From assembly GCF_002939885.1 (NCBI RefSeq), contig NZ_MDED01000025.1, positions 1-64,000 on the forward strand: a stretch of 64,000 nt of DNA, read 5' to 3'. Within the stretch, counting starts at the first letter, position 1. Every line of letters starts with the position of its first letter. Below are positions 9,184 through 33,847 of this stretch, in pieces. The position numbers and the translations under genes are program-made. The DNA comes from Xanthomonas cucurbitae. GTDB lineage: Bacteria > Pseudomonadota > Gammaproteobacteria > Xanthomonadales > Xanthomonadaceae. The notes beneath the pieces were generated by a model that saw only the letters and a list, made by a program, of their open reading frames with translations, was not told the origin of the DNA and ran no database searches.

Positions 9184-9212
9184 ATGTCACATTAGAGTCA
9201 CAAAACCGTAGT
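9184..9212 (+). promoter_or_regulatory. Pho box (PhoB operator) upstream of phoB
   Basis: ATGTCAC - ATTA - GAGTCAC - AAAA - CCGTAGT gives 7-base repeats on an 11-base period. The known PhoB site is CTGTCAT-N4-CTGTCAT. The first two repeats each keep the GTCA core; the third is weak. The site ends about 38 bases before the phoB start, consistent with PhoB autoactivation as in E. coli. Confidence 0.72.
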
Positions 9213-9939: not shown

Positions 9940-10014
9940 TCGGCGCCGCACAGCCGCCTGGCCGCCGCATGGGCCGGGCAGCTACCTACCTGACGCTTCG
10001 TGGTAACGCCTTCC

Positions 10015-11343
10015 ATGCCCCAACATATCCGTTCCGCCTGGCTCAAGACGCTTGGCACTCTCGCGCTGTTGCTGGGCGCTGCCGTGGTGGTGGGCGTGCT
10101 GATCGAGCATGTGTGGATGGCGCTGACCTTCACCGCACTGGGCGTGCTGGGGTGGCATTACTGGCGGCTGCGCCAGGTGCTGCGCCGGCTCACCGCGCGC
10201 CAGCGTGCCGAGCCTGCGGTCGGCATCGGCGCCTGGAACGAACTGGACCGCCTGCTGTACCGCAGCCAGGCCGAAATGCGCGGGCGCAAACGGCGCCTGA
10301 TCGACATGCTGCGGACCTACCGCGCCGCCGCGCAGGCACTGCCGGATGCGGTGGTGGTGGTGGACCGCAACAACCAGCGCGTGCAGTGGTTCAACAAGGC
10401 CGCCGGCGGCCTGCTCGGCCTGCAGCATCCTGGTGACATGGGCGTGTCGGTGGTGGAACGCCTGCAACCGCTGCCGTTGGCGCACTGGCTGGCGGCCGGG
10501 CGCAATGCCGAGCCGATGCTGGATGCGGCCTCGCCGGTGGACCCGGACCTGCGCCTGAACCTGCGCCTGATTCCGTATTCGGACGACTACTGGCTGCTGG
10601 TGGCGCGCGATGTCAGCAAGCTGCTGCGCCTGGAACAGGTGCGCCGCGACTTCGTGGCCAATGTCTCGCACGAGTTGCGCACGCCGTTGACGGTGGTACA
10701 CGGCTACCTGGACATGCTCGACCCGGAAGACTTCCCGGACTCGGGCCCGATGCTGGCGGAGATGCGCAAGCAGTCGCAGCGCATGGCACAGCTGGTGGAA
10801 GACCTGCTGACCCTGTCGCGGCTGGAATCGCAGGAAGAACTCGGCGAAGAACACGTGGCGATGGCGCCGATGCTGTCCACCCTGCGCCGCGAGGCCGAGG
10901 CGCACAGCCAGGGCCGGCACACGGTGGAAGTGATCGACGAGGCCGGCGTGGATCTGCTCGGTTCCAACAAGGAATTGCATAGCGCGTTCTCCAACCTGGT
11001 GACCAATGCGGTGCGCTATACGCCCGGCGGCGGCACGGTCACGATCCGCTTCGTGCGCGAAGGCGACGGCGCGGCGCTGGCAGTGCGCGACACCGGCTAC
11101 GGCATCCCCGCCTCGCATCTACCGCGCATCACCGAGCGTTTTTATCGCGTGTCCAGCAGCCGCTCGCGCGAGAGCGGCGGCACCGGGCTGGGGCTGTCGA
11201 TCGTCAAGCACATCCTGGGCCTGCACCAGGCGCGGCTGGACATCGAAAGCGAGGTGGGACGCGGCAGCGAGTTCTCGTGCCATTTCGTGGCCGCCCGTGT
11301 CGTGCAACGCGAACCGTCCCTGCCACTGTCACGCTCGGCGTGA
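10015..11343 (+). CDS. phoR: Phosphate regulon sensor histidine kinase PhoR
   Basis: A 442-residue membrane kinase; ATG 10015 is taken as the start, although GTG 10000 is possible in frame. Two hydrophobic segments near the N-terminus (TLGTLALLLGAAVVVGVLI and MALTFTALGVLGW) leave almost no periplasmic loop, as in other PhoR proteins, which sense phosphate through the Pst/PhoU system. A PAS region (about 90-190) is followed by the HisKA box NVSHELRTPLTVVHGY with His219, the N box NLVTNAVRYTPGG and the G boxes DTGYGIP and GGTGLGLSIVKHIL. It phosphorylates PhoB. ppk follows. Confidence 0.95.
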   Translation: MPQHIRSAWLKTLGTLALLLGAAVVVGVLIEHVWMALTFTALGVLGWHYWRLRQVLRRLTARQRAEPAVGIGAWNELDRLLYRSQAEMRGRKRRLIDMLRTYRAAAQALPDAVVVVDRNNQRVQWFNKAAGGLLGLQHPGDMGVSVVERLQPLPLAHWLAAGRNAEPMLDAASPVDPDLRLNLRLIPYSDDYWLLVARDVSKLLRLEQVRRDFVANVSHELRTPLTVVHGYLDMLDPEDFPDSGPMLAEMRKQSQRMAQLVEDLLTLSRLESQEELGEEHVAMAPMLSTLRREAEAHSQGRHTVEVIDEAGVDLLGSNKELHSAFSNLVTNAVRYTPGGGTVTIRFVREGDGAALAVRDTGYGIPASHLPRITERFYRVSSSRSRESGGTGLGLSIVKHILGLHQARLDIESEVGRGSEFSCHFVAARVVQREPSLPLSRSA

Positions 11344-11452
11344 TATGTAAGCGGTGCAGGCCGCAGCGCGGCGCGATGCACCGGTGCCATCCGTGTCGCA
11401 TCGCCTGCGTCGCGGCCCATGCGCCGCACACCACGCACACCACTTCGCCTTG

Positions 11453-13567
11453 ATGACCGACTCCATGGGCCACGCCAAAGAACTGCACGACGTCACACCC
11501 GGCGACGACATCGCCACCGATCCGCTGCGGGATCCGGCGCTGTACATCAACCGCGAGCTGTCGCAGCTGGATTTCAATTTCCGGGTATTGGCGCAGGCAC
11601 TGGACGACCAGGTGCCGCTACTGGAACGGCTGCGCTTCCTGTGCATCTCCTGCACCAACCTGGACGAATTCTTCGAGATCCGCGCCGCCACCGTGCGGCA
11701 CGCGCAGGAATTCGGCTTGCCGCCGGCACCGGACGGTTTGAGCCCTACCGCCATCCTCAATGCCGTGCACGACCGCGCGGCCAAGTTGGTGGAGCAGCAG
11801 TACCACGCCTGGAACGAGGTGCTGCGCCCGGCGATGGAAGAAGCCGGTGTGGCCGTACTCGGTCGCTCGACGTGGACGGCGCGGCAGAAGCGCTGGCTGC
11901 GCGCCTACTTCCGCAACGAGATCATGCCGGTGCTCTCGCCACTGGGGCTGGATCCGGCGCATCCGTTCCCGAAGATCCTCAACAAGACCCTGAACATCGT
12001 GGTGGTACTGGAGGGCCAGGATGCGTTCGGACGCGCCGGCCACCTGGCCATTGTGCGTGCGCCGCGTTCGTTGCCGCGCATCATCCAGCTGCCGGCCAGC
12101 CTGTCGCCGGACGGTGCGCAGAGTTTTGTGTTCCTGTCCTCGGTGCTGTCGGAGTTCGTGGACGAGCTGTTCCCGGGCATGCAGGTCAAGGGCTCCTACC
12201 AGTTCCGCGTCACCCGCAATTCCGAATTGGTGGTGGACGAAGAAGAGGTCGAAAATCTGGCGCTCGCCTTGCGCGACGAGCTGGTTACCCGCGGCTACCG
12301 GCCGGCGGTGCGCCTGGAAATCGCGCACGACTGCCCGGCGCCGATCATGCGCACCCTGCTGCAGAACTTCGGTCTGAACGAGAACGCGGTGTACCGCATC
12401 GTCGGGCCGGTCAATCTCAGCCGCGTCACCCAGGTCTACGATCTGGTGCAGCGCCCCGAACTCAAGTACCCCGCGTTCAATCCGCGCACCTTGCGCGACA
12501 GCGAAGGCATCTTCGAGATCGTCGGCAAGGGCGATGTCCTGCTGCACCACCCCTTCGATGCGTTCACCGCGGTGCTGGATGTCATCCGCCAGGCGGCAGT
12601 CGATCCGAACGTGCTGGCGATCAAGCAGACGCTGTACCGCACCGGCAAGGATTCGTTGATCGTCGATGCGCTGATCCTGGCCGCGCGCAACGGCAAGGAC
12701 GTCACCGTGGTGGTGGAACTGCGCGCGCGTTTCGACGAGGAAGCCAACCTGGGGCTGGCCGACAAGTTGCAGGAAGCCGGCGTGCAGGTGGTGTACGGCG
12801 TGGTCGGCTACAAGACCCATGCCAAGATGCTGCTGATCGTGCGCCGCGAAGGACGCAAGCTCAAACGCTATGTGCATCTGGGCACCGGCAACTACCACAG
12901 CGGCACCGCGCGGCTCTACACCGACATCAGCCTGATTACCGCCGATGCGGAGATCGGCAACGACGTACACATGCTGTTCCAGCAACTGTCCGGGCTGGCC
13001 CCGCGCATGAAACTGGACCAGCTGCTGCAATCGCCCTTCACCCTGCATGCCGGCGTACTGAAACGCATCGACCGCGAAACCCGACTGGCCCGCAAGGGCC
13101 GCCCGGGCCGCATCATTGCCAAGATGAACGCTCTCAACGAACCGCAGGTGGTGCGCGCCCTGTACACCGCCTCGCAGGCCGGCGTGCAGATCGACCTGAT
13201 TATTCGCGGCGCCTGCACGCTGCGGCCGGGCGTGCCGGGCGTGTCCGACAATATCCGCGTGCGCTCGATCGTGGGGCGCTTCCTGGAACACAGCCGCGTG
13301 TATTGGTTCGGCAACGACGGGGCGGCCGAGCTGTATTGCGCCAGCGCCGACTGGCTGGAACGCAACCTGCTGCGCCGGGTGGAAACCTGCTTCCCGATCC
13401 TGGACCCGGACCTGGCCCGGCGCGTGTATCGCGAAGTGCTGCAGAACTACCTGGACGACAACGTCAGCGCGTGGGAGCTGGACGCCGAGGGCGTGTACCA
13501 CAAGCGCACGCCCGCACCCGGTGAACCGGCCCATTCGGCGCAGGTGACCTTGCTCGATCGGATCTGA
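11453..13567 (+). CDS. ppk: Polyphosphate kinase 1
   Basis: A 704-residue enzyme that makes inorganic polyphosphate from ATP reversibly. ATG 11453 is preferred; the reading extended upstream begins in poor sequence. The N domain opens with YINRELSQLDFNFRVLAQA, and the head domain contains SCTNLDEFFEIR. Catalytic motifs are the phospho-accepting His456 in YKTHAKMLLIVRREG and the following HLGTGNYHSGTARLYTD. A second phospholipase-D-like half contains QIDLIIRGACTLRPG. Length is near the family norm (about 690). It lies 110 bases after phoR and 57 before ppx, so polyphosphate synthesis and degradation genes are adjacent to their regulators. Confidence 0.95.
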   Translation: MTDSMGHAKELHDVTPGDDIATDPLRDPALYINRELSQLDFNFRVLAQALDDQVPLLERLRFLCISCTNLDEFFEIRAATVRHAQEFGLPPAPDGLSPTAILNAVHDRAAKLVEQQYHAWNEVLRPAMEEAGVAVLGRSTWTARQKRWLRAYFRNEIMPVLSPLGLDPAHPFPKILNKTLNIVVVLEGQDAFGRAGHLAIVRAPRSLPRIIQLPASLSPDGAQSFVFLSSVLSEFVDELFPGMQVKGSYQFRVTRNSELVVDEEEVENLALALRDELVTRGYRPAVRLEIAHDCPAPIMRTLLQNFGLNENAVYRIVGPVNLSRVTQVYDLVQRPELKYPAFNPRTLRDSEGIFEIVGKGDVLLHHPFDAFTAVLDVIRQAAVDPNVLAIKQTLYRTGKDSLIVDALILAARNGKDVTVVVELRARFDEEANLGLADKLQEAGVQVVYGVVGYKTHAKMLLIVRREGRKLKRYVHLGTGNYHSGTARLYTDISLITADAEIGNDVHMLFQQLSGLAPRMKLDQLLQSPFTLHAGVLKRIDRETRLARKGRPGRIIAKMNALNEPQVVRALYTASQAGVQIDLIIRGACTLRPGVPGVSDNIRVRSIVGRFLEHSRVYWFGNDGAAELYCASADWLERNLLRRVETCFPILDPDLARRVYREVLQNYLDDNVSAWELDAEGVYHKRTPAPGEPAHSAQVTLLDRI

Positions 13568-26590: not shown

Positions 26591-28748
<2,158 letters not shown>

Positions 28749-28865: not shown

Positions 28866-30947
28866 TCAGGCACGCCCCAGCGCCGGATCGCTGCGACTGG
28901 GCCGCCCGGTTTCCAGATGGCCGGCCAGGCGTCGGCGGAAGGCCGCACCCGGCTGCTCGATCACCAGGTCGTACCAGTGATCGCTTGCCGCCAGCGGCAG
29001 GCGAATGCGCTGCCGCTGGCCCGCAGCGAGCCGCAGCGGCCGCGGAGTCGGGTCGCCATGATCCAGCGCACGCAGTTGCAGCGCACAGGCCTGTTGCCCG
29101 GCATTGCCGATCTCCAGCACCAGCGCATCGCCGTCCTGCCGCGCTTCCACCCAGGGGGTGGCCTGCTGCGCGGCATCGGGGGGCAGCTCGCCGGCGAACT
29201 CGCGCAGGAACCCATTGGGCCCATGCACGCGCAGCGCGTACGTCCCTTCGTGCAGCGCACCTGGCGGGATGTCATCGAGCTGCGTGCCCGGCAACACGGT
29301 GTAATACCAGGGGCCACCGCTGGCCGCGCTGGTGTAGACGTTGAACGCCGCCGCAGCGGCGCCGCTGTTGACGAACTGCAACTGCAGCGCGTTGCCATCG
29401 AGTACGCGTGCATGCACCTGCAATGCATACGGCAATGCGCGCGCGGGGCGTTGGCCCGGCTCCTGCCGTGGCATGCTGGGGTTGCTTGGCGGCACCGGTA
29501 GCGGCTTGTTGCGCAACGCAGCGGTCCGCGCGCGGTAGTCGTGGATCGATGGCAACGCGCTCAGTGCCGAATCGTCCGGCTTGCGGAAATCGAACACACT
29601 GGTCAGGTCACCGCTGACCGCACGCCGCCAGGGGCTGATATTGGGCTCGGCCACGCCGAAGCGGCGCTCCAGCAATCGCAGCACCGAGGTGTGGTCGAAC
29701 ACCTGCGAATTGACCCAACCACCGCGTGTAAACGGGGAGATCACCAGCATCGGCACGCGGATGCCCAGGCCCACCGGCACGCCGTTGTAGGCTTCACCAC
29801 GCACATCGACATTGCTGCGCCCCATGCGCGCATCCAGCGCCGGCAACGGTGCCGGTACGTGATCGAAGAAGCCGTCGTTCTCGTCGTAGTTGATAATCAA
29901 CGCAGTCTTGGCCCAGACCTGCGGATTGGAGGTCAATGCGTCGATCAGCCGCGCCACCAGCGATTCACCATAGGCGGGCGGCGCTTCGGGATGTTCGCAG
30001 TACGCGGTGGGCGGAATGACCCACGACACCTGCGGCAAGCGGTTGGCCTGCACGTCGGCGCTGATTGCGGCAACCAGATGCTCGGCCTGCGTGGTGGCCG
30101 CGTTGTCCGCGGTGGAGCCTGGCACGCAGGCGCGCGCACGCCGATAACGCTCATCGGCGGGATCGAGTCCACGGTAGTGGGAAAAATACGCTAGCGAGTT
30201 GCAGCCGAAGTTGTCGTATTCCTGATACACGCGCCAATCGATGCCGGCTGCCTGCAGCCGCTGTGCATACGTGGTCCAGCCCATTGCCGCGTAACCGGGC
30301 TTGTCGCGCGCCATGTCGGCGGTCCAGTTGCCGTCATCGGCATTGTCGGCCACCTGCGCGCGCAGATCGCCCACGCTCAAGCCGCTGGTGCCGGTGAACA
30401 GGTACATGCGATTGGGATTGGTCGGCCCATGCATCGAACAGAAATACCCATCGCAAATGGTGAAGGCGTCGGCGAGCGCGTGGTAGTACGGGATGTCCTG
30501 ACGCTGGAAATAGCCCATCGCCAGCTCGCCCTTGTACGGCACCCAGGCATCGTAGTCGGCCCAGCGTGCCGGGTCCTGCCCATGACCGGCCTTCCAGGAG
30601 TGATCCAGGCTTTTAATCAACGGCGCACTGGTGTTTTGCGAATCGAACGCAAACGGCAACAACCGCCGTCCATCGGCGGCGGGCTGGCTCCAGACCGGGT
30701 TGCCGTCGCGCAACTGCAGCGCGTGCGGATCGCCGAAGCCGCGCACGCCGCGCAGTGCGCCGAAATAATGATCGAAGGAGCGGTTTTCCTGCATCAGGAT
30801 CACCACATGTTCGATGTCGCGCAACGTGCCGGTGCGCGCATTGGCCGGCAACGCCAGCGCGCGGCCGATCGATGACGGCAAGGCTCCTGCGGCGGTGAGC
30901 GCGGCAACCCGCTTGAGGAAATCGCGGCGCGAAGATGATGAGGTCAT
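28866..30947 (-). CDS. Phosphocholine-specific type phospholipase C, Tat-exported
   Basis: A 693-residue enzyme starting at ATG 30947. The Tat signal is SSSRRDFLKRVAALTAAGALP (Arg7-Arg8). The phosphoesterase domain starts with IEHVVILMQENRSFDHYFGALRG, the metal-binding signature of the bacterial PLC/acid phosphatase AcpA superfamily. MHGPTNPNRMYLFTGT, VSWVIPPTAYCEHPEAPP and INYDENDGFFDHVPAP are further conserved blocks. Two C-terminal beta domains of about 90 residues follow (from HARVLDGNALQLQFVNSGA), typical of PlcN/PlcH. It cleaves phosphatidylcholine or related lipids, releasing phosphoryl groups from host membranes. A Pho box 75 bases upstream indicates induction by phosphate starvation. 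It is divergent from a TonB receptor. Confidence 0.9.
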   Translation of the reverse strand: MTSSSSRRDFLKRVAALTAAGALPSSIGRALALPANARTGTLRDIEHVVILMQENRSFDHYFGALRGVRGFGDPHALQLRDGNPVWSQPAADGRRLLPFAFDSQNTSAPLIKSLDHSWKAGHGQDPARWADYDAWVPYKGELAMGYFQRQDIPYYHALADAFTICDGYFCSMHGPTNPNRMYLFTGTSGLSVGDLRAQVADNADDGNWTADMARDKPGYAAMGWTTYAQRLQAAGIDWRVYQEYDNFGCNSLAYFSHYRGLDPADERYRRARACVPGSTADNAATTQAEHLVAAISADVQANRLPQVSWVIPPTAYCEHPEAPPAYGESLVARLIDALTSNPQVWAKTALIINYDENDGFFDHVPAPLPALDARMGRSNVDVRGEAYNGVPVGLGIRVPMLVISPFTRGGWVNSQVFDHTSVLRLLERRFGVAEPNISPWRRAVSGDLTSVFDFRKPDDSALSALPSIHDYRARTAALRNKPLPVPPSNPSMPRQEPGQRPARALPYALQVHARVLDGNALQLQFVNSGAAAAAFNVYTSAASGGPWYYTVLPGTQLDDIPPGALHEGTYALRVHGPNGFLREFAGELPPDAAQQATPWVEARQDGDALVLEIGNAGQQACALQLRALDHGDPTPRPLRLAAGQRQRIRLPLAASDHWYDLVIEQPGAAFRRRLAGHLETGRPSRSDPALGRA

Positions 30948-31021
30948 GACCGAAGCCTTGCAGAAGTCGATACGACGCAGCGCGTGAAGCGATGCGTGCA
31001 GGACACGTATAGCCGCCGACC

Positions 31022-31039
31022 ACGACAGTTTTGCGACAG
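31022..31039 (-). promoter_or_regulatory. Pho box between phospholipase C and TonB receptor genes
   Basis: On the minus strand: CTGTCGC - AAAA - CTGTCGT. Both 7-base repeats keep CTGTC and the 4-base spacer is A-rich, as in the PhoB consensus CTGTCAT-AAAT-CTGTCAT. It lies 75 bases before the phospholipase start and about 103 bases before the receptor start, so either or both genes may be under PhoB. Confidence 0.8.
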
Positions 31040-31141
31040 CGGCCGTCATCAATGTTTCATGAGCCATTGACACCCTGCGTCGCGAAACGCCGGTCTTGCA
31101 CCGCGCGTCCGCCCTCAGCCGTGCTTGAACAGGATTCCCCC

Positions 31142-33466
31142 ATGACTTCCGCTCGTCGTTTTGATGTCACTGCGTTGGCGCTGGCCCTGGCCGCGCTGCT
31201 TCCCGTCGTGGCGTACGCCGCCGCCCCGGTCGCTGCCGACGTTGCAGATGCCCCGGCCGCGGTGGTCGATGCCGCAGGCAACGCCACCGACCTGGATGCG
31301 ATCAACGTGGTGTCGCAAGGCAGCACGCGCCAGGTGCAGCGCATCAGCCAACAGGACATCGAACAACTGACTCCAGGCAGCAGCCCCTTCAAGGCAGTGG
31401 AAGAATTGCCGGGCGTGCAGTTTCAATCCGCCGATCCGTTCGGCACCTACGAGTGGTCCGCGCAGGTCACCTTGCACGGCTTCGACCAGAGCCGCCTGGG
31501 CTATACACTCGACGGCATTCCGCTGGGCAACATGAGTTACGGCGTCACCAACGGCCTGCACATCACCCGCGCCATCATTTCCGAAAACCTCGGCTCGGTG
31601 GAGATCGCCCAGGGCGCCGGTGCGCTGGGCACCGCCTCCAACACCAATCTCGGCGGCACCATGCAGTTCTACTCGGCCGATCCGCAGACCACGCCCGGTG
31701 CGCGGCTGGTGCAGACGGTGGGCAGCGATGCAACGCGCCGCACCTTCGTGCGCGCCGACACCGGCGACCGCAATGGATTGTCGGCGTACCTGTCCTACGC
31801 CAATGCCAGCACCGACAAGTGGAAGGGCTTCGGCGACCAACAATCCGAACAGGCCAACCTCAAGACCGTCTACCAGTGGGGTGACGGCAATCGCCTGAGC
31901 CTGTTGCTGGATACCTCGCGGCGCAAGGAGTACGACTACATGGACCTGTCGTTGACCAGCCAGCGTGTGCTGGGCTGGGATTTCGATTATCTGCAGCCGG
32001 ATTGGGCCACCGCCGTGCGGATGGCTCGCGCCTACCAGACTACCGGCGCCACCAGCGGCGTGGCCAATGGCTATCCGCAATCGCTGGCCGGCCTACCCAA
32101 CGACTACAGCTGGCTGGATGCCAGCTACTACGCCGGCGGCGGCCTGCGTCGCGACAATCTGGCCGGGCTGTCGGGTACCTTCGTGTTCGGCGGCGCCACC
32201 CTGGATACCACCGGGTACTACCACGGCAATCGGGGCGAGGGGCAGTGGGTGACGCCGTACGTGGTGACCTCGGCGCAGATTCCGCTATCCATGCGTACCA
32301 CCGATTACGGCCTGGATCGTTTCGGCGGCACCAGCGCATTGAAGTGGTCATGGGGCAATCACGATCTGGAAGCCGGCATGTGGGTAGAAAATGCCCGCAC
32401 CACGCAGAGCCGCAACTATTTTGCGCTTGGTAACGAGGGCTATACCTCGCTGTACAACGTGTACGACGCACAGACCCCGTTCCGCCGCGACTTCCTGCAG
32501 CGCTACACCACCCAGACCCGCATGCTGTACCTGCAGGACACCGTGCGTCTGCTCGATGATCGATTCACGTTGAATTACGGCGCAAAGGCACTCGACACCA
32601 CCACCCGTGCGCAATCGCTGTTGCCAACCACCGCACTGGCGCAAGGCCGCATCAGCGCCGAGGACAACTTCCTGCCGCAGGTGGGCGTGAATTACAAACT
32701 CGACGAGCAGCAAGACATCTACGCGTCCTACAGCAAGAACATCGCTGCGTTCGGTTTCACGCCGTTCGCCACCTCGCAGGCCGCGTTCGACCGCAGCCGC
32801 TCCACGCTGGAGCCGGAACAATCGCAGACCGTGCAGGTGGGCTACCGCGTGCAGGACGCGCAGTTCCAGCTTTCGGCCGATGCCTACTTCACCAAGTTTT
32901 CCAATCGTCTGCTGACCACCTCGCCGTGCAGCGCGGTGCAGACCTGCGCGGCGATCCTGAGCAACGTCGGCGCCGTGCATAGCGCCGGTGCCGACCTGGC
33001 GCTGATGTGGCGCCCGGTCGAAGGCCTGAGCTGGTTGAACTCGCTGTCGTGGAATCGCTCGCGCTACCAGGACAACTACCTCAACAACGGCGTGGTTGCC
33101 ACCGCTGGCAAGGACGTGGTCGGCATCCCGGCACTGATGTTCTCCTCCAGCGCCAGCTACCAGGTCGGCAACCTGCGCCTGGACCTGGACGGCAAGTACG
33201 TGGACAAGCGCTACATCACCTTCCTCAACGACTCGCAGGTTCCCTCGTACTGGCTGTTCAACGCCGGTGCGCGCTACGACTTCGGCCGCGTGGGTCCGGC
33301 ACAGGATGTGGGCCTGGCGCTCAATGTCACCAACCTCACCGACAAGCGCTACTTCGCCAGCACCGGCACCAACGGCTATGTCGCTTCCGATCCGGATGGC
33401 TACAACCAGACCATGGTGGTCGGCGCACCGCGGCAGACCTTCCTGAGCCTGGATGTGAAGTTCTGA
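31142..33466 (+). CDS. TonB-dependent outer-membrane receptor (probably phosphate-responsive)
   Basis: A 774-residue protein starting at ATG 31142. It has a signal peptide (RRFDVTALALALAALLPVVAYAAAP), a TonB-box-like segment LDAINVVSQG and a plug domain containing AVEELPGVQFQ, LDGIPLGNMSYG and VEIAQGAGALG. A beta-barrel follows, ending TFLSLDVKF with the usual C-terminal Phe. Two cysteines (PCSAVQTCAAI) sit in a late extracellular loop. It has no Oar-type N-terminal extension or FecR-signalling domain. The ligand is unknown. Divergence from phospholipase C and the shared Pho box suggest uptake of a phosphorus-containing compound, which is inference. Confidence 0.88.
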   Translation: MTSARRFDVTALALALAALLPVVAYAAAPVAADVADAPAAVVDAAGNATDLDAINVVSQGSTRQVQRISQQDIEQLTPGSSPFKAVEELPGVQFQSADPFGTYEWSAQVTLHGFDQSRLGYTLDGIPLGNMSYGVTNGLHITRAIISENLGSVEIAQGAGALGTASNTNLGGTMQFYSADPQTTPGARLVQTVGSDATRRTFVRADTGDRNGLSAYLSYANASTDKWKGFGDQQSEQANLKTVYQWGDGNRLSLLLDTSRRKEYDYMDLSLTSQRVLGWDFDYLQPDWATAVRMARAYQTTGATSGVANGYPQSLAGLPNDYSWLDASYYAGGGLRRDNLAGLSGTFVFGGATLDTTGYYHGNRGEGQWVTPYVVTSAQIPLSMRTTDYGLDRFGGTSALKWSWGNHDLEAGMWVENARTTQSRNYFALGNEGYTSLYNVYDAQTPFRRDFLQRYTTQTRMLYLQDTVRLLDDRFTLNYGAKALDTTTRAQSLLPTTALAQGRISAEDNFLPQVGVNYKLDEQQDIYASYSKNIAAFGFTPFATSQAAFDRSRSTLEPEQSQTVQVGYRVQDAQFQLSADAYFTKFSNRLLTTSPCSAVQTCAAILSNVGAVHSAGADLALMWRPVEGLSWLNSLSWNRSRYQDNYLNNGVVATAGKDVVGIPALMFSSSASYQVGNLRLDLDGKYVDKRYITFLNDSQVPSYWLFNAGARYDFGRVGPAQDVGLALNVTNLTDKRYFASTGTNGYVASDPDGYNQTMVVGAPRQTFLSLDVKF

Positions 33467-33847
33467 GCATCTGCAGGTCGTCCCCCTCATCCGGCGCTGC
33501 GCGCCACCTTCTCCCGCATGCGGGAGAAGGGTGAAGGCGGTGGTGACCTCCATCCGGCGCTGCGCGCCACCTTCTCCCGCGTGCGGGAGAAGGGTGAAGG
33601 CGGTGGCGACCTCCATCCGGCACTGCGCACCACCCTTCTCCCGCATGCGGGGGAAGGTGCCCGAAGGGCGGATGGGGGCAGCGCGCGAAGTCGCCCCCTG
33701 TCCGGCGCGTGCGCCCGCACGTACACCGCCTGCTCCGTCGCCCGGCAGGCGCCGGATCGACGTGGGCGACCGTCCTGCACTGCCGCATGGCGGATGCGGC
33801 ATCGGGCATATAATTGCGGACTTATTTCACTTAGCAGGCCTCGCCAT
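33467..33847. other. Intergenic region with 63-bp tandem repeat; tdh leader
   Basis: No gene is supported here. Bases 33485-33676 are the tandem repeat described separately. Bases 33680-33847 hold the presumed tdh promoter; TATAAT at 33808-33813 (GGCATATAATTGC) is a plausible -10 box 40 bases before the start. Confidence 0.5.
33485..33676 (+). repeat. Three-copy 63-bp tandem repeat with 24-bp palindromes
   Basis: The unit contains CATCCGGCGCTGCGCGCCA followed by a palindrome. Anchors at 33491, 33554 and 33617 give an exact 63-base period. Palindromes lie at 33507-33530 (perfect), 33570-33593 (one central change) and about 33634-33657 (degenerate). Each can form a 12-bp stem. It looks like a tandemly amplified REP-type intergenic element after the receptor gene. 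Confidence 0.85.

Follow-up and report, generated by a model that had tools for sequence, protein, structure and literature searches.

Putative Pho boxes placed back to back between a phospholipase C gene and a TonB-dependent receptor gene of Xanthomonas cucurbitae

Two putative PhoB-binding sites stand back to back, one per gene, between the divergent genes for a phosphocholine-specific phospholipase C (plc) and a TonB-dependent receptor of X. cucurbitae. Control of this pair by phosphate starvation appears well supported by the sequence, and we consider it very likely; the fuller reading, in which a divergent PhoB-promoter pair co-induces an exoenzyme that cuts lipids and a receptor that imports organic phosphorus, is probable. 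What was observed are the two boxes and their conservation, the geometry of the plc -10 element, the family to which the enzyme belongs, genes for PhoB and PhoR, and the recurrent link between the receptor family and phosphoesterases; PhoB binding, phosphate dependence, secretion and cargo are what we infer.

When phosphate is short, PhoR would phosphorylate PhoB, and PhoB dimers would bind both boxes, one reading left into plc, the other right into the receptor gene. The exported enzyme would act outside the cell on phosphatidylcholine-type lipids, freeing phosphocholine and diacylglycerol, and the receptor would use TonB to import small organic phosphorus compounds, that is, phosphodiesters or phosphomonoesters such as glycerophosphodiesters and phosphocholine. 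Envelope phosphatases would then strip phosphate from the imported compounds for Pst. If true, this would reveal a route by which plant-associated bacteria gain access to the phosphorus of membrane lipids.

The features concerned, all within the window (the whole 64,000-nucleotide stretch of DNA that was analysed), are:

9184-9201, plus strand: weak Pho-like box ATGTCAC ATTA GAGTCAC upstream of phoB, found by score
9250-9939, plus strand: phoB, the sole PhoB gene of the genome above the curated cut-off
10000-11343, plus strand: phoR (PF11808, HisKA, HATPase)
11354-13567: polyphosphate kinase gene, after phoR
28866-30947, minus strand: plc, phosphocholine-specific phospholipase C (PC-PLC) of 693 amino acids with a Tat signal (TIGR03396)
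31006-31011, minus strand: candidate plc -10 element TATACG, 17 nt after the start of the second half-site
31022-31039, minus strand: putative plc Pho box CTGTCGC AAAA CTGTCGT, from consensus score and conservation
31043-31060, plus strand: putative second Pho box CCGTCAT CAAT GTTTCAT, facing the receptor gene, from consensus score and alignment conservation
31067-31089, plus strand: stretch conserved in the alignment, TTGACACCCTGCGTCGCGAAACG, between the receptor box and the receptor gene
31142-33466, plus strand: TonB-dependent receptor of 774 amino acids, plug and barrel (PF07715, PF00593)

Boxes and promoters between the two genes

A preliminary description of this DNA proposed one high-quality Pho box, at 31022-31039 on the minus strand, joining the two genes. 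Sequence, strand and coordinates are as described, with both CTGTC halves and the AAAA spacer, and the promoter distances of 75 and about 103 bases are borne out by measurement to the ATGs of plc (30947; 75 bases) and the receptor gene (31142; 103 bases). The epithet "high-quality" holds in part. With a simple consensus score (two CTGTCAT halves and an A/T spacer) applied to all 18-mers on both strands of the window, the plc box has the top score, 13.0, a value reached on the minus strand by 1 in 4000 dinucleotide shuffles of the intergenic region; but position 6 is G, not A, in both of its half-sites, and for this reason it ranks 31st in the window under a matrix trained on Xanthomonas pst/porin sites. 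G at position 6 of a half-site is also present in candidate boxes elsewhere in the genome: upstream of a putative porin gene that precedes pstS and at the C14 locus described below. CTGTC-N6-CTGTC has a single perfect match in the window, the plc box. With up to one mismatch, matches number 4 in the window (mean of shuffles, 4.6) and 185 in the genome, 8 of them perfect; the reversed control for the genome-wide count is void because CTGTC reversed is CTGTC. The pentamer pair alone is not rare, and the claim therefore rests on place, spacer and conservation.

The second-best consensus score in the window, 12.5, belongs to the receptor-facing match 3 bases from the plc box. This score is reached on the plus strand by 1 in 4000 shuffles of the intergenic region, and on both strands by none of the 4000; under the pst-trained matrix the site ranks 5th. 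Its first half, CCGTCAT, is common in Xanthomonas pstS promoters. Plus-strand sites scoring at least 10.5, such as CCGTCATCGGCCTGTCAT, were found in 21 of 30 pstS loci, and the two pstS genes of X. cucurbitae have sites scoring 12.5 and 11.5. For the matrix, the 9 loci without a site of at least 10.5 contributed nothing, two weak sites were omitted, identical sites were merged and two sites of the X. cucurbitae genome itself were added, for a total of 16.

Each box has two direct repeats near CTGTCAT, 11 bp apart, as in class II PhoB promoters, and on the plc side there is also a -10 element at fixed spacing from the second repeat. In the phoA promoter of E. coli the Pho box overlaps the -35 position and the -10 element begins about 17 nt after the start of the second half-site; the plc promoter has the same geometry and the same 17-nt spacing, differing in its G at half-site position 6 and in a G+C-rich stretch before the -10. 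The core of the plc -10 (GTATA, 31007-31011) is conserved in all five columns and identical in 34 of 34 aligned sequences, and TATACC occupies the equivalent place in P. boreopolis despite a diverged leader. Strict spacing is stated, in the available text of PMC10294691, to be needed by PhoB-activated promoters. On the receptor side the 17-nt position holds CACCCT, and no good -10 was seen at this spacing after the box; the conserved stretch TTGACACCCTGCGTCGCGAAACG may be the core promoter of the receptor gene.

PhoB and PhoR are encoded in the same window as plc, about 20 kb away. The box upstream of phoB is weak, 70 of 3000 random windows scoring as well, and is followed by TCTACT 17 nt after the start of its second half-site. 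A response-regulator screen in X. oryzae pv. was reportedly made in 2018.

The plc product matches TIGR03396 over its full length (871.4 bits; cut-off 580.25), contains domains PF04185 and PF05506, and carries a Tat signal (TIGR01409, 20.8 bits; cut-off 16.7), in agreement with its earlier description as an exported phospholipase C, export being predicted. Adjoining plc is a broken gene for an S46 peptidase (Dpp7-like; 26591-28748, minus strand), with an in-frame stop at about 28.23 kb and a frame change at about 27.7 kb; L033 and L042 align with it full length in one frame.

The receptor and the company of its relatives

Xanthomonads encode dozens of TonB-dependent receptors per genome, most of them without known cargo, and the X. 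cucurbitae genome has 59 matches to the receptor barrel. The one beside plc has plug and barrel alone in Pfam at E 0.001, with no STN domain at its N-terminus, so that a signal-transducing receptor was rejected. Its flanking genes encode the PC-PLC and a zinc-type dehydrogenase; neither is a SusD-like lipoprotein. An AlphaFold model based on 37 sequences (pLDDT 79.8, pTM 0.81) finds TonB-dependent transporters as all of its best 50 PDB fold matches, at 13-18% identity; these are matches to such transporters in general, without indication of cargo, and ligand assignment from the model was abandoned. Just 3' of the gene, at 33488-33657, lies a tandem repeat of 2.7 copies of a 63-bp unit (93% matches) that includes the palindrome CTTCTCCCGCATGCGGGAGAAG.

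Relatives of the receptor were found in 76 loci, and plc diverges from the receptor gene in 29 of them; in L046 and L056 the contig ends inside plc. Of these loci 56 fed a count of phosphoesterase partners, or 48 once 8 Xanthomonas loci were set aside. A phosphoesterase of our panel lies near the receptor relative in 34 of the 48, against 2 of 40 control regions, both weak; the controls surround 40 other TonB-dependent receptors of the X. cucurbitae genome rather than all 59 matches. The corresponding p value, 6e-11, overstates the enrichment because the panel was drawn from the tested loci, many of these are closely related to one another, and the control regions span about 10 kb where the tested ones run to as much as 14 kb. 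Several of the 14 loci without a panel phosphoesterase (L051, L059, L061, L065, L075, L078, L087 to L093 and L100) are on short contigs.

The partner varies. GlpQ, NPP or both are found beside the receptor in Dyella, Rhodanobacter, Frateuria and Fulvimonas; NPP in Sphingorhabdus-type loci, with overlapping genes in L095; PhoX together with GlpQ in L085 and L086; PhoD in L094, L096 and L106. In Sideroxydans the partner is another PF04185 enzyme, accompanied by TonB and ExbB, and in Pseudoxanthomonas a PC-PLC lies tail-to-tail with the receptor relative. The genome has a single close paralogue of the receptor (44% identity; C14, L123, 4964-9683), on the same strand as GlpQ and divergent from a PAP2 phosphatase. 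The excess of partners supports the view that the receptor imports organic phosphorus under phosphate starvation and can exchange one enzyme partner for another; and with the importer and the phospholipase apparently co-induced by phosphate starvation, cargo of phosphorus compounds rather than iron is suggested. On the strength of this gene company we favour organic phosphorus as the cargo class, with some reserve. Since relatives stand beside other phosphoesterases, the cargo may be broader than the phospholipase product. That this product is itself the cargo, that host membranes are its source and that expression occurs solely under phosphate limitation, as the preliminary description had it, may each be so. 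Taken together, the promoter, the lipid-cutting neighbour, and the six further kinds of phosphoesterase that adjoin relatives and a paralogue make for a concrete, testable cargo class.

A receptor under genuine Pho control could instead import a metal or cofactor needed by the phosphoesterases. The nearest curated family is indeed of siderophore type (TIGR01783, TonB-siderophor), although the receptor scores 146.9 bits against a cut-off of 223.5; the best fold matches are PqqU and YncD, at 16-18% identity, with FhuA, FyuA and FecA also present, and a PDB sequence search returned FhuA alone (E 0.0006). Several of the partner enzymes are also metalloenzymes. What unites the partners, however, is phosphate-ester chemistry and not a single known metal; nor was any Fur-like site found in the intergenic region, where the best match is 9/19, equalled or bettered at 842 positions of the window, and Fur control of the receptor was rejected on this account. 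We regard metal or cofactor import as unlikely.

An importer of organic phosphorus is also to be set against import of the lipid part (fatty acids, monoacylglycerol or diacylglycerol) as carbon, with plc supplying the phosphorus. In many Dyella and Rhodanobacter loci the receptor gene is followed by one for a fatty-acid hydroxylase whose C-terminal domain is of the alkylglycerol-monooxygenase type (L057, 8531-10336, plus strand, and orthologues), a possible ether-lipid link that would suit a lipid cargo; but relatives adjoin PhoX, PhoD, NPP and GlpQ, whose substrates mostly contain no fatty acid, and lipid import seems to us improbable.

A second PC-PLC gene of the genome (847.7 bits) directly follows that of another TonB-dependent receptor on the same strand (L128, C12, 5101-9880, minus strand). 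It has no Pho box scoring at least 11.5, and its receptor is on a very long branch in a tree of 38 sequences; for these reasons it was rejected as a repeat of the module, and is perhaps a phosphate-independent copy of the plc/receptor pairing.

Conservation of the boxes and Pho-like sites at related loci

Relatives that keep both genes also keep the repeats: of 30 aligned sequences that contain the two genes, 29 have the CTGTC pentamers unchanged, and L077 has one substitution. The exact composite of the two boxes is present in 32 of 35 genomes of the genus, one copy in each; the reversed composite, as control, has no match in them. The other three (G009, G018 and G019) retain receptor, plc and both boxes with few substitutions: a single one within the plc pentamers in G009 and in G019, and changes to the receptor box in G018 and G019. 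In a family sample the composite is present in 13 of 247 genomes and 2 of 54 genera. In the subset of loci checked for it, plc adjoins the box in 19 of 19.

In an alignment of 34 sequences, columns of at least 97% identity number 11/18 in the plc box and 15/18 in the receptor box, and 0/58 and 41/81 in the plc and receptor leaders respectively. Compared with the window, P. boreopolis matches at 31 of 36 box bases and 65 of 139 leader bases (Fisher p 1.2e-5). The receptor box is identical at 18/18 positions in L051 and at 16/18 in P. boreopolis.

Pho-like sites also accompany more distant receptors. At the C14 paralogue they point in each direction, a site of 12.5 toward the phosphatase and two overlapping sites of 11.5 toward the receptor, and the same back-to-back arrangement recurs in a second genome of the genus with scores of 12.0 and 13.0. 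Measured against control windows of the same locus, a plus-strand Pho-like site upstream of the receptor is significant (p <0.05) in 26 of 49 loci, near relatives among which are not independent; L100 stands at 0.050. The 49 are the loci left from the 76 once 25 from Xanthomonas and two truncated ones, L078 and L093, are taken out. The 26 include 5/5 of the Xanthomonas/P. boreopolis type, 4/4 Luteibacter loci tested, Pseudoxanthomonas, L085, L086 and L090. Upstream of the receptor, the ten Sphingorhabdus-type loci have sites significant by the same measure on the minus strand in 9 cases and on the plus strand in 8. Most loci of Dyella and Rhodanobacter, and both from Sideroxydans, show no significant receptor-proximal site. 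In Dyella the receptor gene comes after glpQ and the NPP gene, all on one strand. Of 13 loci scored upstream of glpQ, 4 give p <=0.025, and in 9 a recurring TGTCAA-N4-nnGACA(T/C) is visible to the eye, which is no more than suggestive.

These data bear on the number of boxes. A single shared box at 31022-31039 might activate plc and, from its other side, the receptor gene, the second match being incidental; a single box is also what the preliminary description supposed, and the higher consensus score of the plc box (13.0 against 12.5) would suit it. The receptor-side match, however, is the better conserved of the two, in the alignment as in L051 and P. boreopolis, its CCGTCAT half is of a kind common in pstS promoters, and the paralogous receptor/phosphatase locus has sites in each direction. 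A shared box is accordingly improbable, and the single-box description gives way: because the second match lies 3 bases away, faces the receptor gene and is better conserved, we read the region as two back-to-back Pho boxes, one per gene.

That both boxes are bound weakly or not at all, some other promoter element explaining their conservation, would fit the low matrix rank of the plc box and the conserved stretch adjoining the receptor box, but is most improbable given two 7-4-7 repeats, the 17-nt spacing to an invariant TATAC in plc, and the occurrence of Pho-like sites ahead of the receptor gene in distant Sphingomonadales. As a counterpoint, many PhoB-bound sites of E. coli are described as transcriptionally inert in the available text of PMC10294691.

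Relation to known phosphate-starvation systems

PlcH and PlcN of Pseudomonas aeruginosa are phosphate-repressible PC-PLCs, exported by Tat and under Pho control, and the enzyme encoded here belongs to the same family, TIGR03396. We know of no pairing of PlcH or PlcN with a TonB-dependent receptor through back-to-back Pho boxes. Titles and abstract openings among the literature matches listed contain no description of the plc/receptor pair or its boxes; as far as these matches tell, what is new is the pair with its back-to-back boxes in Xanthomonas and a receptor family with exchangeable partners. In the available portions of three papers, that on Xanthomonas receptors of 2007 (PMC1790865) does not mention PhoB or phospholipase, that on PhoX of X. 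citri (PMC5439949) does not mention Pho box, TonB or phospholipase, and PMC9123166 holds nothing relevant to the pair. The reference list of PMC6090019, as available, cites a phosphate proteomics study of X. citri (Pegos 2014).

Pho-controlled receptors accompanied by phosphoesterases are already known, to go by the available text of the papers concerned, from Caulobacter (PMC11208175) and Flavobacterium (PMC8115612). In Caulobacter crescentus the PhoB regulon takes in TonB receptors for which a role in importing phosphate-containing compounds has been proposed, along with phospholipase C, glycerophosphodiesterases and a nucleotide pyrophosphatase; the combination of receptors and phosphoesterases is as here, but a divergent plc/receptor pair is not described in that text (PMC11208175). 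PusCD of Flavobacterium are TonB-dependent transporters of the outer membrane; phosphate depletion induces them, and phosphatases are encoded alongside (PMC8115612). They are of the SusC/SusD type of Bacteroidetes, with a surface lipoprotein, whereas the receptor studied here has no SusD-like neighbour. We hold it an evenly balanced question whether the receptor family is a proteobacterial counterpart of the Bacteroidetes polysaccharide/phosphate utilisation loci, that is, a Pho-controlled importer of organic phosphorus in Lysobacterales, Sphingomonadales and Gallionellaceae whose partner (PC-PLC, GlpQ, NPP, PhoX, PhoD, PAP2 or another PF04185 enzyme) is swapped by lineage while the promoter logic is often kept.

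A further likeness is to ElpS of Caulobacter (CC0170), a phosphate-starvation lipoprotein encoded with the TonB receptor CC0171 beside a type II secretion system (PMC2996285, available text). In the ten Sphingorhabdus-type loci, a gene for a lipoprotein-like protein and a second receptor gene diverge from the receptor gene; their resemblance to ElpS/CC0171 is one of position, which would also be the basis for identifying the first as ElpS. Within the X. cucurbitae data, L211 (C5, 1163-8600) carries genes for a lipoprotein-like protein and for a receptor ahead of a GspD-type secretin gene; it is likewise comparable with ElpS/CC0171. A strong site at L211:4221 lies inside a receptor gene and was taken as chance. 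The L211 pair is about 40% identical to the divergent Sphingorhabdus pair and has a Pho-like site, GTGTCAG AAAT ATGTCAA (12.0), upstream.
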